From NCBI GenBank assembly GCA_024762795.1, contig JANTGS010000005.1, forward strand, positions 1 to 62,471: 62,471 bases of DNA, written 5' to 3'. The translations under genes and the position numbers were made by a program. A model generated the notes under the pieces. The model was not told the DNA's origin and did no database searches. It saw only the letters and a program-made list of their open reading frames with translations. Of this stretch, positions 25,639 through 49,951 are shown one piece after another. The stretch is from Flavobacteriaceae bacterium (GTDB lineage Bacteria; Bacteroidota; Bacteroidia; Flavobacteriales; Flavobacteriaceae). How positions within the stretch are numbered: position 1 is the first letter of the stretch; each line of letters starts with the position of its first letter.

Positions 25639-27660
<2,022 letters not shown>

Positions 27661-27740: not shown

Positions 27741-27766
27741 AAAAAAAGCCCGATGAACGGGCTTTT
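27741..27766 (-). terminator. Intrinsic terminator of small RNA unit C
   Basis: Stem AAAAGCCCG (27744-27752) with CGGGCTTTT (27758-27766), 5-base loop, followed by a run of U in the reverse-strand direction. It also protects gyrB from read-through. Confidence 0.85.
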
Positions 27767-27903
27767 ATCTAACTCGTAAACTCAAAATTTAGAGTATTTG
27801 TAAAAAATAGAAAATCTGCAATAATATTTGTCCCCTCATTAAAAACAGATTCTGTAAGTAAAATAACTTCCTGTATCTGAAGAAAACAGGAAATCACTTT
27901 ACA
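27741..27903 (-). ncRNA. Candidate small RNA, unit C (most diverged copy)
   Basis: A non-coding unit of about 160 bases on the reverse strand. It starts just after a degenerate TATATTGC box and ends in the terminator at 27744-27766. A 16-pair stem joins GTAAAGTGATTTCCTG with CAGGAAGTTATTTTAC near the 5' end. A 6-pair helix AATCTG/CAGATT (reverse strand; plus-strand 27846-27851 and 27813-27818) encloses TGAGGGGACAAATATTA. This loop and helix layout is shared with units A and B although the helix sequence is different. No conserved reading frame is present. Confidence 0.6.
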
Positions 27904-27908
27904 TGAAC

Positions 27909-27943
27909 GCAATATAAGAATCAAATCTAAAGGAAATCTGAAG
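27909..27943 (-). promoter_or_regulatory. Promoter with 11-base direct repeats, unit C
   Basis: On the reverse strand, CTTCAGATT (plus 27935-27943), 2 bases, CTTTAGATT (plus 27924-27932), 7 bases, then TATATTGC (plus 27909-27916), which is one base off TAnnTTTG. The same spacing occurs before units A and B. The paired repeats look like an OmpR-family regulator site. Confidence 0.55.
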
Positions 27944-27947
27944 TTAT

Positions 27948-27982
27948 AAAAAAATCCCGGTTCAAAAAAAATGAACCGGGAT
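27948..27982 (-). terminator. Intrinsic terminator of small RNA unit B
   Basis: 11-base perfect stem ATCCCGGTTCA (27954-27964) and TGAACCGGGAT (27972-27982), 7-base loop, followed by seven U on the reverse strand. Confidence 0.9.
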
Positions 27983-28154
27983 TGTTGTGCAAATTAAAAT
28001 AGCTTAATATTTCAATGTATTTTTTGTTAGACTTACTGATATTAATCCCCTCAGTTAACATGAATAAGTTTAACTTTTATATTTCGGCCTTCATAAAAAA
28101 ATATGAATTTGAACTTTTCCGAAACCCGTAATAAATCAATTATTCGATTAATTA
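27948..28154 (-). ncRNA. Candidate small RNA, unit B
   Basis: A non-coding unit of about 205 bases on the reverse strand, bounded by TATATTTG at 28160-28167 and the terminator at 27954-27982. Helices in order are P1, 28 bases from GTAATTAATC to GATTTATTAC; P2, TTTCGG/CCGAAA (plus 28119-28124 and 28082-28087) with an inner TTCATA/TATGAA hairpin; and P3, GTTAAAC/GTCTAAC, enclosing TGAGGGGATTAATAT. The last 60 bases before the terminator are nearly identical to unit A. A possible frame from an ATG in this unit is not kept in unit A. Confidence 0.75.
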
Positions 28155-28159
28155 CACTG

Positions 28160-28194
28160 CAAATATATGGGTAGATTCTAAAGATAATCTGAAG
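28160..28194 (-). promoter_or_regulatory. Promoter with 11-base direct repeats, unit B
   Basis: On the reverse strand, CTTCAGATT (plus 28186-28194), 2 bases, CTTTAGAAT (plus 28175-28183), 7 bases, then TATATTTG (plus 28160-28167), an exact TAnnTTTG match. The box begins directly after the terminator of unit A. Confidence 0.7.
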
Positions 28195-28199
28195 TTATA

Positions 28200-28430
28200 A
28201 AAAAATCCCGGTTCAAAGAATGAACCGGGAAGTGTTGTGCAAATTAAAATAGCTTAATATTTCATTGTATTTGCGTATGTGTTAGATTGTACTAATATTA
28301 ATCCCCTCAAATAACATTAATGCAGATCTAACGTTTATCGTCACATTTGCGACTGGTTTATTTCAGTATCATTATTGAAATGATTTTGAACTTTCTGAAA
28401 CAAGTAAAAAATGATTTAATCAACTTTTTA
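28200..28430 (-). ncRNA. Candidate small RNA, unit A
   Basis: A non-coding unit of about 230 bases on the reverse strand, directly downstream of the histidine kinase gene. P1 is a 28-base hairpin from GTAAAAAG to TTTTTTAC. P2 is TTTCAG/CTGAAA (plus 28395-28400 and 28361-28366) with an inner ATCATT/AATGAT hairpin and a conserved internal loop AAAGTTCAAA. P3 is GTTAGAT/ATCTAAC enclosing TGAGGGGATTAATAT. Compared with unit B, several pairs change on both sides at once (A-T to G-C in P2, A-T to T-A in the inner stem), which supports the fold. It ends in the terminator at 28206-28230. Confidence 0.78.
28201..28230 (-). terminator. Intrinsic terminator of small RNA unit A
   Basis: 10-base perfect stem TCCCGGTTCA (28206-28215) and TGAACCGGGA (28221-28230), 5-base loop, followed by a U run on the reverse strand. 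Confidence 0.9.
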
Positions 28431-28435
28431 CGGGG

Positions 28436-28470
28436 CAAATATATTTCCTGAATCTGAAGAGATTTTGAAG
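28436..28470 (-). promoter_or_regulatory. Promoter with 11-base direct repeats, unit A
   Basis: On the reverse strand, CTTCAAAAT (plus 28462-28470), 2 bases, CTTCAGATT (plus 28451-28459), 7 bases, then TATATTTG (plus 28436-28443). The box starts 13 bases after the kinase stop codon. Direct repeats with an 11-base period are typical of OmpR/PhoB-type binding sites. Confidence 0.7.
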
Positions 28471-28482
28471 TTTACACAAGAT

Positions 28483-29730
28483 TTAAAAATAAATTGTAAA
28501 ATGATGCATTTGATCGGTAAAAGTGTGTTTAATCTTCCAATCGTGTACATCACAAATTTTCTTGACAATGGCCAGCCCCAGGCCGAAAGAGTCAGATGCG
28601 GTACTCTCTTTTTTAAATCTTTCAAAGATCTTATCTGAATCAGTTTTAAGTTCTATTCCGGTATTAGAGATCATAATAAAGAGATCATCTGTAACAACCT
28701 CAATGGTTCCGCCTTTAACATTATGTTTTATCGAATTCCCTATCAGATTTGAAATAATGGTATCAAATAACATGGGATTTGCTTCAATTTTTACATCAGG
28801 TTTAAGCTTTTTTATAACTTTAAGTTTCTTATTGCTGATAAAATCCTCAAAGATTTCAAGTTGTTCAACGATTATTTCATTGATATCGATCTCTTCTTTG
28901 TTGCTGTATTGCTGGTTATCGATCTTGGATAGCATCAACAGGGTTTTGTTGAGTTTAGAAAGTCTTTTTGAAGCCGAATAGATATCGCTGATTAATTTCT
29001 TTTCCTCATGCTTCAGATTTTTCGATTGCATAAGATACTCCAGCTTTGTTTGCATAATTGCCAGAGGTGTTTGCATTTCATGCGAAGCATTATCGGTAAA
29101 TTCTTTTAAATTGGTAAAATCGTTACGTAATTTCTCTGTTAGTTTTGAAACAGAATCATTAAAGATTTTAAACTCATCAATATCGGTTTGCTCAAGTTCT
29201 ATACTTTTATTCTTTTCAACGGAGAAATTCTTTAGTGAGTTCAGATTCTTATTAAAGGGTTTTAACAATTGGTTAAACACCATGGTGTTGATAAAAAAGA
29301 AAGTAATAATCAGTAAAAGAATCACGATACCTACAGATAAACTAATGGCCAGAATAAATTCATGATTCTTTACCAGAGAACTTCGGGTGATAATTTTATA
29401 AGTTCTTCCTTGCAGAGTTTCAACAGAAGTAAGTTGCCTGTACAATTCATAATTCTCTACTCCTTTAACAATTTGATACATGAGTGTATCTTTATAGTAA
29501 AGGGTGTCTTTTACAGGATTTTTTGCCTTAAAATCCTCAACATCGAAAATAGGCAGAGGATAGTCGTATTTGATACGTTGTTCAATAATATCCTTATCGC
29601 GGAGTAGTTTTTCATCTTGTCGTTTGGTTACGATATTTTTAAAGATAAAGTATATTACTGCACTCGACATTATAAAGATAATGATAGAGTATAAAATATA
29701 AGACCTCCTGGTTTTATTGATCAATTTCAT
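28483..29730 (-). CDS. Sensor histidine kinase
   Basis: 415 residues. Inner-membrane sensor with TM1 at about 11-32, a periplasmic loop of about 90 residues with no recognised ligand domain, and TM2 at about 125-148. The dimerisation helix has the phosphoacceptor His217 in ASHEMQTPLA, and the ATPase domain has the N box NLIGNSIKHN and the G box FGLGLAIVKK. The start codon overlaps the stop of the response regulator by one base, so the pair is translationally coupled. Directly after its stop begins an array of three candidate small RNA genes with repeat-containing promoters. The signal is unknown. Confidence 0.9.
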   Translation of the reverse strand: MKLINKTRRSYILYSIIIFIMSSAVIYFIFKNIVTKRQDEKLLRDKDIIEQRIKYDYPLPIFDVEDFKAKNPVKDTLYYKDTLMYQIVKGVENYELYRQLTSVETLQGRTYKIITRSSLVKNHEFILAISLSVGIVILLLIITFFFINTMVFNQLLKPFNKNLNSLKNFSVEKNKSIELEQTDIDEFKIFNDSVSKLTEKLRNDFTNLKEFTDNASHEMQTPLAIMQTKLEYLMQSKNLKHEEKKLISDIYSASKRLSKLNKTLLMLSKIDNQQYSNKEEIDINEIIVEQLEIFEDFISNKKLKVIKKLKPDVKIEANPMLFDTIISNLIGNSIKHNVKGGTIEVVTDDLFIMISNTGIELKTDSDKIFERFKKESTASDSFGLGLAIVKKICDVHDWKIKHTFTDQMHHFTIYF

Positions 29731-30404
29731 TAATCACCAAATTTATAGCCTAAACCATAGATGGTTTGAAGATAATCTGTTGCCCCTTTCTTTTTAAGTT
29801 TTCTTCTGAGATTTCGCATATGGGTATAAATAAAATCAAAATTATCGGCCATATCAATACTATCTCCCCACAGGTGTTCAGCGATCGATTCTTTGGTAAG
29901 TACGCGGTCTTTATTGGTAATAAAATAGAGTAGCAGATTGTATTCTTTTCGGGTAAGTTCAATAGCTTCCTGATTTACTTTTACAGTTTTTGCTGTAGGG
30001 TCGATCTCGATCTCATGAAATGTAATGCTGTCTTGCCCCTTGAATTTTTGTCTTCTGATCAATGATTTTACCCTTGAATTCAGTTCCGCCAGATGAAAGG
30101 GTTTTGTAATATAATCATCTGCCCCCAGGTCAAGTCCTTTAAGTTTGTCATCCAGTGAATTTCTGGCACTGACAATAAGTACTCCTGTTGAAGGAGATTG
30201 TTTTTTTATTATCTTTAGCAGATCCATCCCGCTTCCGTCAGGTAAATTAATGTCGAGAATTACAATATCATAATTGTAGGTGATCAGTTTGTCCTCGGCA
30301 TCGAAAAAATTATAGGCAAATTCGCAAACAAAATCCTCTTTTTTCAGATATTTACAGGTAACATCCACAAGGTCTTTTTCATCTTCAACGATCAGTATCT
30401 TCAT
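29730..30404 (-). CDS. OmpR-family response regulator
   Basis: 224 residues. Receiver domain 1-115 with acidic pocket E7-D8, phosphoacceptor Asp51 in ILDINLPDG and Lys101 in ITKPF. The winged-helix DNA-binding domain spans about 125-222, ending with YLQTIYGLGYKF. First gene of a regulator-kinase operon. A TACCTTTG box at 30442-30449 (reverse strand), 38 bases before the start, is a good -7 element. Proteins of this class bind paired direct repeats with an 11-base period, and such repeats occur before each of the three downstream small RNA units, which makes this regulator their likely activator. Confidence 0.92.
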   Translation of the reverse strand: MKILIVEDEKDLVDVTCKYLKKEDFVCEFAYNFFDAEDKLITYNYDIVILDINLPDGSGMDLLKIIKKQSPSTGVLIVSARNSLDDKLKGLDLGADDYITKPFHLAELNSRVKSLIRRQKFKGQDSITFHEIEIDPTAKTVKVNQEAIELTRKEYNLLLYFITNKDRVLTKESIAEHLWGDSIDMADNFDFIYTHMRNLRRKLKKKGATDYLQTIYGLGYKFGD

Positions 30405-30485: not shown

Positions 30486-31628
30486 TTAAAAAAGAAGTTT
30501 GTAGGAATTCTTGTCTTTTTTAAAGGAATATCCAATGGTCCATTCAACATAATCGGCATGAAATTCAGTTACTTTTAAACCAACACCGGTGATAAAATTT
30601 TTCTTTTTACCGGCCAGATATCTAAATCCGATGCGTTGATAAAGGCGTTGTTCAAAATTCTCGGTATTATAATTTAGGTGGACTCCAAAATTGAGAGGGA
30701 TATAAATACGTTCTGTAAGTACCCATTCCCAGATGCCCACAAAACCATAACTAAACCGCTTTTTAAAATTACTTTTATCACTTTCTACACGATCTAAGGA
30801 ACCGGCTGTATAAAATAACTCCATTCCACCGCCAAAGCGATATTTATAATTGCGTTGCCATAAATAACTCAGTCCCAGTGACGATTTAAAATAAACAGAT
30901 CTTCCGTATTCAAAATTCTTGTTGCCCACAGCGTAAAAAACATCTACCATGGTTAAAGGTATGTATTCTTTTACTTCAACCTCTTTCAGATCTGTTTCTG
31001 TATCGTCAAAATTATATTGTACCAATAAGGTTAGGGGCAGCAAATTAACCCCTCTGTTGGGTAAATGTATTCTTCCGTTTGAAAAATGTTTGAATCCGGC
31101 ACCAATACCGGCTACCCAGTGGTCGCTAATGTTGTATCTACCCTCAAGAGAAAAACCAATATATACATTCCTTGCCGATCCTAATAATATATTACCGGGG
31201 TTTTCTTCCGGATCATAATAATTAAAGTTAAAAGCCATTCCCAGGCCGAGGGTGTAAAACCAGTTCCATCTACTTTGGGTATTGTGCATGGCTCTTATGG
31301 GAAAATCCATAAATCCATAAACTCCAAAAGGTTTTCCAAAAGCGTTGCTGTTAAAATTACCGCTGTAAATTCCCAATCCGTATTTCGGAGCTTTATACAA
31401 TCTGGAGTAAACATCATTTTCTTTTCTCTGCCAGGCGAGTCGCAAATCAATACCATAATAATCTTCTATTCCTTTTTCTCTTACACTTTTAATGATCCCT
31501 CCATAATCGAATTTAAGCTGGGAATACAGATTGTATTTCTTTTTATTTTTATATGCTCCGGCAGATCTGATGCTGTCATGAGAGGTAATTTTAAGTGTAT
31601 TTTGTGCATAGTTTGTTTTTACCCACAA
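30486..31628 (-). CDS. Acyloxyacyl hydrolase / PagL-type lipid A deacylase-like outer membrane protein
   Basis: At least 380 residues. An outer-membrane beta-barrel with the HFSNGR motif (His-x-Ser-Asn) in GIGAGFKHFSNG, the catalytic His/Ser pair of lipid A 3-O-deacylases. Many alternating aromatic strands follow. TTG at 31628 is the first conventional start codon in frame, but a good signal peptide (LHFTTFLLLFF, cleavage near NYAQ) is encoded upstream and requires initiation at about 31661-31688, where only CTG or ATA is available before a stop at 31695. The true start is therefore unclear. It may remodel lipid A, which is an inference from the family. Confidence 0.75.
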   Translation of the reverse strand: MWVKTNYAQNTLKITSHDSIRSAGAYKNKKKYNLYSQLKFDYGGIIKSVREKGIEDYYGIDLRLAWQRKENDVYSRLYKAPKYGLGIYSGNFNSNAFGKPFGVYGFMDFPIRAMHNTQSRWNWFYTLGLGMAFNFNYYDPEENPGNILLGSARNVYIGFSLEGRYNISDHWVAGIGAGFKHFSNGRIHLPNRGVNLLPLTLLVQYNFDDTETDLKEVEVKEYIPLTMVDVFYAVGNKNFEYGRSVYFKSSLGLSYLWQRNYKYRFGGGMELFYTAGSLDRVESDKSNFKKRFSYGFVGIWEWVLTERIYIPLNFGVHLNYNTENFEQRLYQRIGFRYLAGKKKNFITGVGLKVTEFHADYVEWTIGYSFKKDKNSYKLLF

Positions 31629-49794: not shown

Positions 49795-49824
49795 TTTGCA
49801 GATAAAAAAAAGTTTATAAATTTG
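49795..49824 (+). promoter_or_regulatory. Promoter of the trp operon
   Basis: TTTG at 49795-49798, 18 bases, then TAAATTTG at 49817-49824, a near-perfect Bacteroidota promoter. The expected transcription start lies only a few bases before the leader peptide ATG at 49836. Confidence 0.75.
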
Positions 49825-49835
49825 CTCACTTATTT

Positions 49836-49892
49836 ATGAGAAAACAGAATTTAAATACCTGGTGGTGGACTTATCGAAACAAAATTTCGTGA
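49836..49892 (+). CDS. trpL: trp operon leader peptide
   Basis: An 18-codon frame from ATG at 49836 to TGA at 49890-49892. It encodes MRKQNLNTWWWTYRNKIS, with three consecutive Trp codons. It lies directly downstream of the trp promoter and ends 31 bases before an intrinsic terminator, the classic architecture of ribosome-mediated attenuation. When tryptophan is scarce, stalling at the Trp codons should prevent terminator formation. A hairpin CGAAA/TTTCG spans the last codons (49875-49889). Confidence 0.85.
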   Translation: MRKQNLNTWWWTYRNKIS

Positions 49893-49923
49893 GGAATCAC
49901 TTTGGATAAAATATAAATCAAAG

Positions 49924-49951
49924 GCTTGTCTTCACGACAAGCTTTTTTTTT
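49924..49951 (+). terminator. trp attenuator terminator
   Basis: Perfect 7-base stem GCTTGTC (49924-49930) and GACAAGC (49936-49942) with a 5-base loop, followed by nine T (49943-49951). It lies between the leader peptide and trpE. Upstream a CTTTG/CAAAG pairing (49900-49904, 49919-49923) reaches up to the base just before the terminator stem, but I could not resolve a clear antiterminator by eye. Confidence 0.85.

Follow-up and report, generated by a model that had tools for sequence, protein, structure and literature searches.

The enterobacterial sRNAs MicA, RybB, and OmrA/OmrB are driven by envelope signals and stop the synthesis of outer-membrane proteins when translation initiates; of these, OmrA/B are in tandem and are controlled by OmpR. 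The csRNAs of streptococci are paralogous, some of them in tandem, and depend on the OmpR-family regulator CiaR and its repeat TTTAAG-N5-TTTAAG (11-bp period); they have regions that are complementary to ribosome sites and AUG codons (PMC8186281). FopS/GibS of Bacteroides are multicopy sRNAs that bind near the starts of outer-membrane transporters (a SusC start) and repress their translation. FopS has a single-stranded 5' seed (R1) followed by a terminator hairpin, with 14 members and canonical promoters (PMC11697453). Rfp18 of Flavobacterium psychrophilum is structured, and its third stem-loop is predicted to pair with the mRNAs of exported proteases and an adhesin (PMC9723704).

We analyzed a stretch of 62,471 nucleotides from a Flavobacteriaceae bacterium (the window; contig JANTGS010000005.1 of GCA_024762795.1). 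At positions 27741-28470, on the - strand, three tandem non-coding units are flanked on one side by gyrB and on the other by a gene pair for an OmpR-type regulator and a PorY-family kinase:

29730..30404, - strand: response regulator of the OmpR/PhoB type (Pfam Response_reg, the receiver, and Trans_reg_C); presumed activator of the array
28483..29730, - strand: membrane sensor histidine kinase (HisKA and HATPase_c), PorY family by NCBIfam
28199..28434, - strand: sRNA unit A, including terminator (minimum free energy -60.6 kcal/mol, z -6.5; match to covariance model R1 at 28238-28332, 103.5 bits)
28302..28309, - strand: seed loop TGAGGGGA of A, which hardly varies within the family
27948..28158, - strand: sRNA unit B, including terminator (-58.1 kcal/mol, z -6.4; R1 match at 27988-28074, 85.2 bits)
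28046..28053, - strand: seed loop TGAGGGGA of B
27741..27906, - strand: sRNA unit C, including terminator, a short type without the P5 hairpin (-45.8 kcal/mol, z -5.1)
27831..27838, - strand: seed loop TGAGGGGA of C
25639..27621 (mechanical ORF coordinates), - strand: gyrB, the fixed downstream neighbor (ORF, synteny)

We propose, with good though not full confidence, that this is an array of paralogous trans-acting sRNAs that is driven by the adjacent two-component system and represses the translation of envelope proteins at their start codons. A stimulus, perhaps envelope stress or the state of the envelope, would activate the PorY-type kinase, and the OmpR/PhoB-type regulator would bind an 11-bp direct repeat that each unit has in its -35 region. 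Transcription of each unit would run from TANNTTTG to an intrinsic terminator, and each RNA would have a covarying stem with UGAGGGGA exposed in its apical loop. This loop would base-pair across the start codon, with (U)CCCCUC(A)UG, in mRNAs that encode outer-membrane proteins, lipoproteins, and other exported proteins, which would block translation initiation and reduce the output of envelope proteins. Multiple copies would give dose as well as room for the flanks to diverge. The evidence is computational: the family and its fold, its synteny, the repeat with its fixed spacing, and the enrichment of the seed's complement at gene starts.

The array and the csRNAs have in common a direct repeat with an 11-bp period, paralogous sRNAs, and complementarity to start codons. 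The complement of the array's seed does include the AUG, which shows a like way of working and not membership. The array's site is CTTCAGAWTnnCTTYAGAWT instead of TTTAAG-N5-TTTAAG, and the regulator is not CiaR. Also unlike the csRNAs, the array belongs to another phylum, has another sequence, and adjoins the genes for its presumed kinase and regulator; its seed is the loop of a covarying stem, and its predicted targets are envelope proteins. FopS, unlike the family described here, has no tandem array and no linkage to a kinase, and its seed is single-stranded, at the 5' end, and followed by the terminator, whereas each RNA of the array has several hairpins and carries its seed centrally, in an apical loop. 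Rfp18 is reported to be conserved in Flavobacterium (PMC9723704), while we found the array in a Lutimonas-like clade only (these two were compared by description alone). Rfam scans showed no sequence or structural relation of the array to MicA, RybB, or OmrA/OmrB. To our knowledge, dependence on Hfq is not expected in Bacteroidota. In its working, the array resembles the csRNAs, FopS, and the enterobacterial sRNAs that repress outer-membrane proteins; by the features tested, it is not a member of the csRNAs or of FopS.

The sequence-only reading of this DNA had placed the units directly downstream of a two-component system, and Pfam identified the domains of both the regulator and the kinase. 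The kinase scores 424.3 bits against NCBIfam's PorY model (NF052314), above the curated cutoff of 350. In Porphyromonas, the partner of PorY is PorX. The adjacent regulator here is a DNA-binding protein of the OmpR type, not PorX, so no role in type IX secretion (T9SS) follows for this PorY-family kinase. Directly upstream of the response regulator is a gene for a PagL-like outer-membrane protein (lipid A 3-O-deacylase family; window 30486-31628, - strand). Elsewhere in the window, at 49816-49930 (+ strand), Rfam's Bacteroid-trp leader (RF01692) scores 53.7 bits (cutoff 49).

Each of the three units folds far more stably than its dinucleotide shuffles (0 of 200 shuffles were as good, for A, B, and C alike). 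The structural details that had been read from the letters are present: three units on the reverse strand, each with its own terminator; P1 hairpins of 28 nt in both A and B, with different sequences; a P2 of TTTCAG/CTGAAA in A and TTTCGG/CCGAAA in B; and an inner hairpin of ATCATT/AATGAT versus TTCATA/TATGAA. The helices said to enclose the loop can all be found, although the pair in B (GTTAAAC/GTCTAAC) has one mismatch. TGAGGGGA-n2-AATAT is in all three units, but across the wider family TGAGGGGA alone is constant and AATAT is not. In the whole 3.0-Mb genome, this motif (TGAGGGGANNAATAT) occurs three times, always in the array. The P2 internal loop (AAAGTTCAAA) of A and B contains a single-stranded stretch, AAGTTCAAAATTCAT, that is conserved in copies from the same genus and could be a second pairing region.

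Could the units encode small proteins? As had been claimed, they share no reading frame: over 58 units, the longest ORF has a median of 25 codons, with no common start. Just two of the 58 have a suitably spaced start after GGGGA and at least 20 codons, and we rejected this explanation. Or, since the array is always just upstream of gyrB, it might be a cis-acting leader of that gene. However, every unit comes with a terminator and a promoter-like box of its own, and so does gyrB, which probably begins at the ATG near 27578, with a TANNTTTG-like box. We give almost no credence to either a gyrB leader or small-protein genes.

The family of trans-acting RNAs that we favor was found stepwise: by a DNA search of relatives, which turned up the array in congeners plus one further genus; with R1, a covariance model of the core; and by scanning GTDB contigs for the pattern of a conserved hairpin. 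The array is present in 24 Flavobacteriaceae genomes, namely the window's own, G001-G005, G030, Lutimonas halocynthiae (L061, apparently the same genome as G280), L. saemankumensis (L075), and marine MAGs. Complete arrays hold 2-4 units, and counterparts of the short unit C with the same seed are present in three other genomes (L065, L068, and L077). Wherever the contig is long enough, the order is regulator, kinase, array, gyrB, with an orthologue of the same response regulator adjoining the array. In the window, a malate dehydrogenase gene is downstream as well. In samples of 299 and 397 genomes from the family, strict filters left matches in two genera only, so the RNAs are either restricted to a subclade or diverged beyond the reach of our models. 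Homologues of the kinase at 31-36% identity elsewhere in Flavobacteriaceae have no array beside them. One genome (L090, also G147) has a 48% orthologue of the kinase with no sRNA array; what comes next there is a regulator-like repeat and TACATTTG, ahead of a small secreted protein. We discarded matches to the P5 hairpin pattern in Clostridium, Desulfovibrio, Spirochaetales, Motilimonas, and others as chance: these had no seed loop nearby.

The sequence-only reading had known of no described family that matches and had suggested searching relatives and Rfam with a covariance model. R1 did find copies in other Flavobacteriaceae. Rfam (release 15) has no match in the region at the gathering cutoff, and a permissive scan gave scores far below the family cutoffs, none of them credible. 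A literature search found no paper that mentions Lutimonas together with sRNA. This sRNA family is new and previously uncatalogued.

Among 48 distinct copies, 22 of 27 base pairs have changed on both sides, and 89.9% of pair cells are standard. The covariation score is 0.493 (shuffles, 0.183; slid structures, no more than 0.12); it is from an alignment that was fitted to the covariance model, which favors the model's structure. When 30 copies were aligned by MAFFT without such fitting, the seed stem was still recovered by RNAalifold, and 6 of its 13 pairs had compensatory changes. Although its own stem diverges, the loop TGAGGGGA hardly varies (two copies read TGAGGGAA). The earlier argument from helix-preserving changes to a selected RNA fold is extended to 48 copies, and the idea of a family of structured RNAs is confirmed by covariation, by conserved synteny, and by the lack of an Rfam match at the gathering threshold.

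Units A and B, but not C, have in common a downstream hairpin that the earlier reading missed (AATATTAAGCTATTTTAATTTGC, or P5; approximately 28242-28275 and 27992-28025 of the window, - strand). Its stem and loop are nearly invariant across genera, in most copies of the family, and it is missing from short units such as C. Possible roles are a chaperone site, a second pairing region, or a dimer contact. P5 may also be a site for a protein. We also considered that the array is a sponge, with GGA in its loops serving to titrate an RNA-binding protein (CsrA/RsmA-like or another). CsrB and RsmY/Z are likewise multicopy, with GGA in hairpin loops, and under two-component control. However, a sponge predicts neither an exact eight-base word nor that the complement of this word should be enriched at start codons in array-bearing genomes alone. 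And CsrA is, as far as we know, not typical of Bacteroidota. We consider a sponge to be quite improbable.

Turning to how the proposed sRNAs would be regulated, an 11-bp direct repeat (CTTCAGAWTnnCTTYAGAWT), also missed previously, is ahead of the units. The TATATTTG-like box that had been reported before each unit is there, in a weaker form for unit C:

28451..28470, - strand: direct repeat of unit A, CTTCAAAATCT CTTCAGATT (score 17 of 18, 27 nt before the box)
28436..28443, - strand: promoter box TATATTTG of unit A (by sequence and spacing)
28175..28194, - strand: direct repeat of unit B, CTTCAGATTAT CTTTAGAAT (score 18 of 18)
28160..28167, - strand: promoter box TATATTTG of unit B (by sequence and spacing)
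27924..27943, - strand: direct repeat of unit C, CTTCAGATTTC CTTTAGATT (score 18 of 18)
27909..27916, - strand: promoter-like box of unit C, TATATTGC, a weaker match (by sequence)

As would be expected for trans-acting sRNAs under two-component control, a predicted site of this kind, scoring at least 16 of 18, precedes 54 of the 58 units (from 23 genomes); shuffled windows never exceed 15. In 51 of the 58, the repeat starts exactly 27 nt before the TANNTTTG-type box. The repeat has 32 exact matches across 18 array-bearing genomes, of which the array accounts for 27, and the reversed pattern has none. We take this layout to be typical of activator sites of the PhoB/OmpR family. From the adjacency and the type of site, we infer that the neighboring two-component system controls the array through the putative site CTTCAGATTnnCTTTAGAAT. 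Array-less genomes contained four sites with the regulator's pattern; three of these are within a secA-like gene, which we attribute to chance.

Three of the five exact matches outside the array precede orthologues of one secreted protein. This protein, with the motif NFRxENSxKxRIYFD, has the repeat about 170-230 nt before its ATG in four genomes (L390, L372, L393, and the window's own, where the copy is L046 or G000:C106). In its long leaders, about 100 nt before the ATG, there are also matches to the seed's complement (CCCTC or CCCCC). The repeat together with these matches suggests a putative feed-forward loop.

CCCCTC, the complement of the seed loop, abuts the ATG of envelope genes. We searched four array-bearing genomes for the seed complement TCCCCTCA and read the surroundings in three of the four. 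Four sites are TCCCCTCATG, whose ATG starts a signal-peptide-like protein, and other sites belong to one L,D-transpeptidase (+8), a second (-75), and a lytic transglycosylase (+20). The target word was derived from the seed before any genes were seen; its start-codon form was settled on once the first four examples were known. CCCCTCATG occurs 91 times in 23 bearing genomes, versus 76 for the reversed word, and 100 versus 262 times in 22 array-less genomes of the family (odds ratio 3.1, P = 4e-9, with counts uncorrected for phylogeny). It coincides exactly with the start of an ORF of at least 100 amino acids at 25 of the 91 sites in bearing genomes, versus 1 of the 29 sites examined (of 100) in array-less genomes, which are more distant relatives (P = 0.004). 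Nearly all of the genes that start at CCCCTCATG encode exported or envelope proteins, judging by their N-termini, and they recur as orthologues:

DUF5723 protein: six genomes
274-amino-acid barrel-like protein: four genomes
membrane-anchored protein resembling endonuclease/exonuclease/phosphatase enzymes: four genomes
CHU_C/Ig-like adhesin: three genomes
small porin-like protein: two genomes
lipoprotein: two genomes

The window's own genome has the exact CCCCTCATG at one gene start only. That TGAGGGGA is a target-binding seed had been guessed from the loop, and this guess is directly supported by the enrichment of its complement at envelope-gene starts in bearing and not in array-less genomes.

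A few gene families and phylogeny could account for this enrichment: the bearing genomes form one subclade, and our counts ignore their dependence. CCCCTC before the ATG might then be a lineage-specific translation or leader element that is unrelated to the RNAs and co-occurs with them in one clade. But CCCCTC exactly complements a loop that has hardly varied even as its stem changed, and the genes with this word are mainly for exported proteins instead of being a random set. We view a coincidental element as very unlikely.

For DUF5723, orthologues were retrieved by protein similarity, 15 of them in bearing and 6 in array-less genomes. A C-rich element is directly before the ATG in 15 of 15 versus 0 of 6 (for example CCCCTCATG, TCCTCTCATG, TCCCTCATG, TCCCTCCATG, or, in the window's own genome, CTCCCCTTATG). 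Nine of the 15 were not picked by the motif, and these have duplex energies of -9.7 to -15.2 kcal/mol. Energy alone separates the two groups weakly (P = 0.03) because one array-less orthologue pairs by chance inside its coding region. The position-specific C-rich element is better evidence than the duplex energies. The orthologue in the window's own genome (G000:C14:34280-35551; L366 and L367) aligns to residues 5-200 and 252-477 of the query in a single frame of 436 amino acids, without the stretch of the query in between.

Pairing at start codons or leaders might instead activate or stabilize the mRNAs, or the RNAs might act mainly on other targets. Some matches are in leaders or inside coding starts, and the presumably co-regulated secreted gene has its matches about 100 nt upstream of the ATG. 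However, the dominant class of sites covers the AUG itself, where pairing should block initiation, and for this reason we prefer repression. We consider these alternatives unlikely.

Flavobacteriaceae are major degraders of polysaccharides in the sea, and we know of almost no post-transcriptional control of their envelope. We lean towards a hitherto undescribed two-component/sRNA envelope regulon, in which the PorY-like kinase and its regulator would drive an array whose single, nearly invariant loop clamps the starts of a changing set of outer-membrane and exported proteins, with feed-forward via the secreted protein. Lutimonas can be cultured, and the locus offers it as a whole circuit to test, with a sensor, a DNA site, RNAs, an eight-base seed, and a named set of targets. 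It is also a natural experiment in the coevolution of seed and target, as the loop is fixed amid diverging stems and the start-codon sites of orthologues differ around it. Bacteroidota do not rely on Shine-Dalgarno pairing, and our results suggest that the bases just before the AUG, free of that constraint, can serve as a landing site for sRNAs. If our proposal is correct, then this would be another multicopy family of Bacteroidota sRNAs aimed at outer-membrane proteins, after FopS. The findings suggest that this bacterium responds to a signal by turning down its outer envelope through these RNAs.
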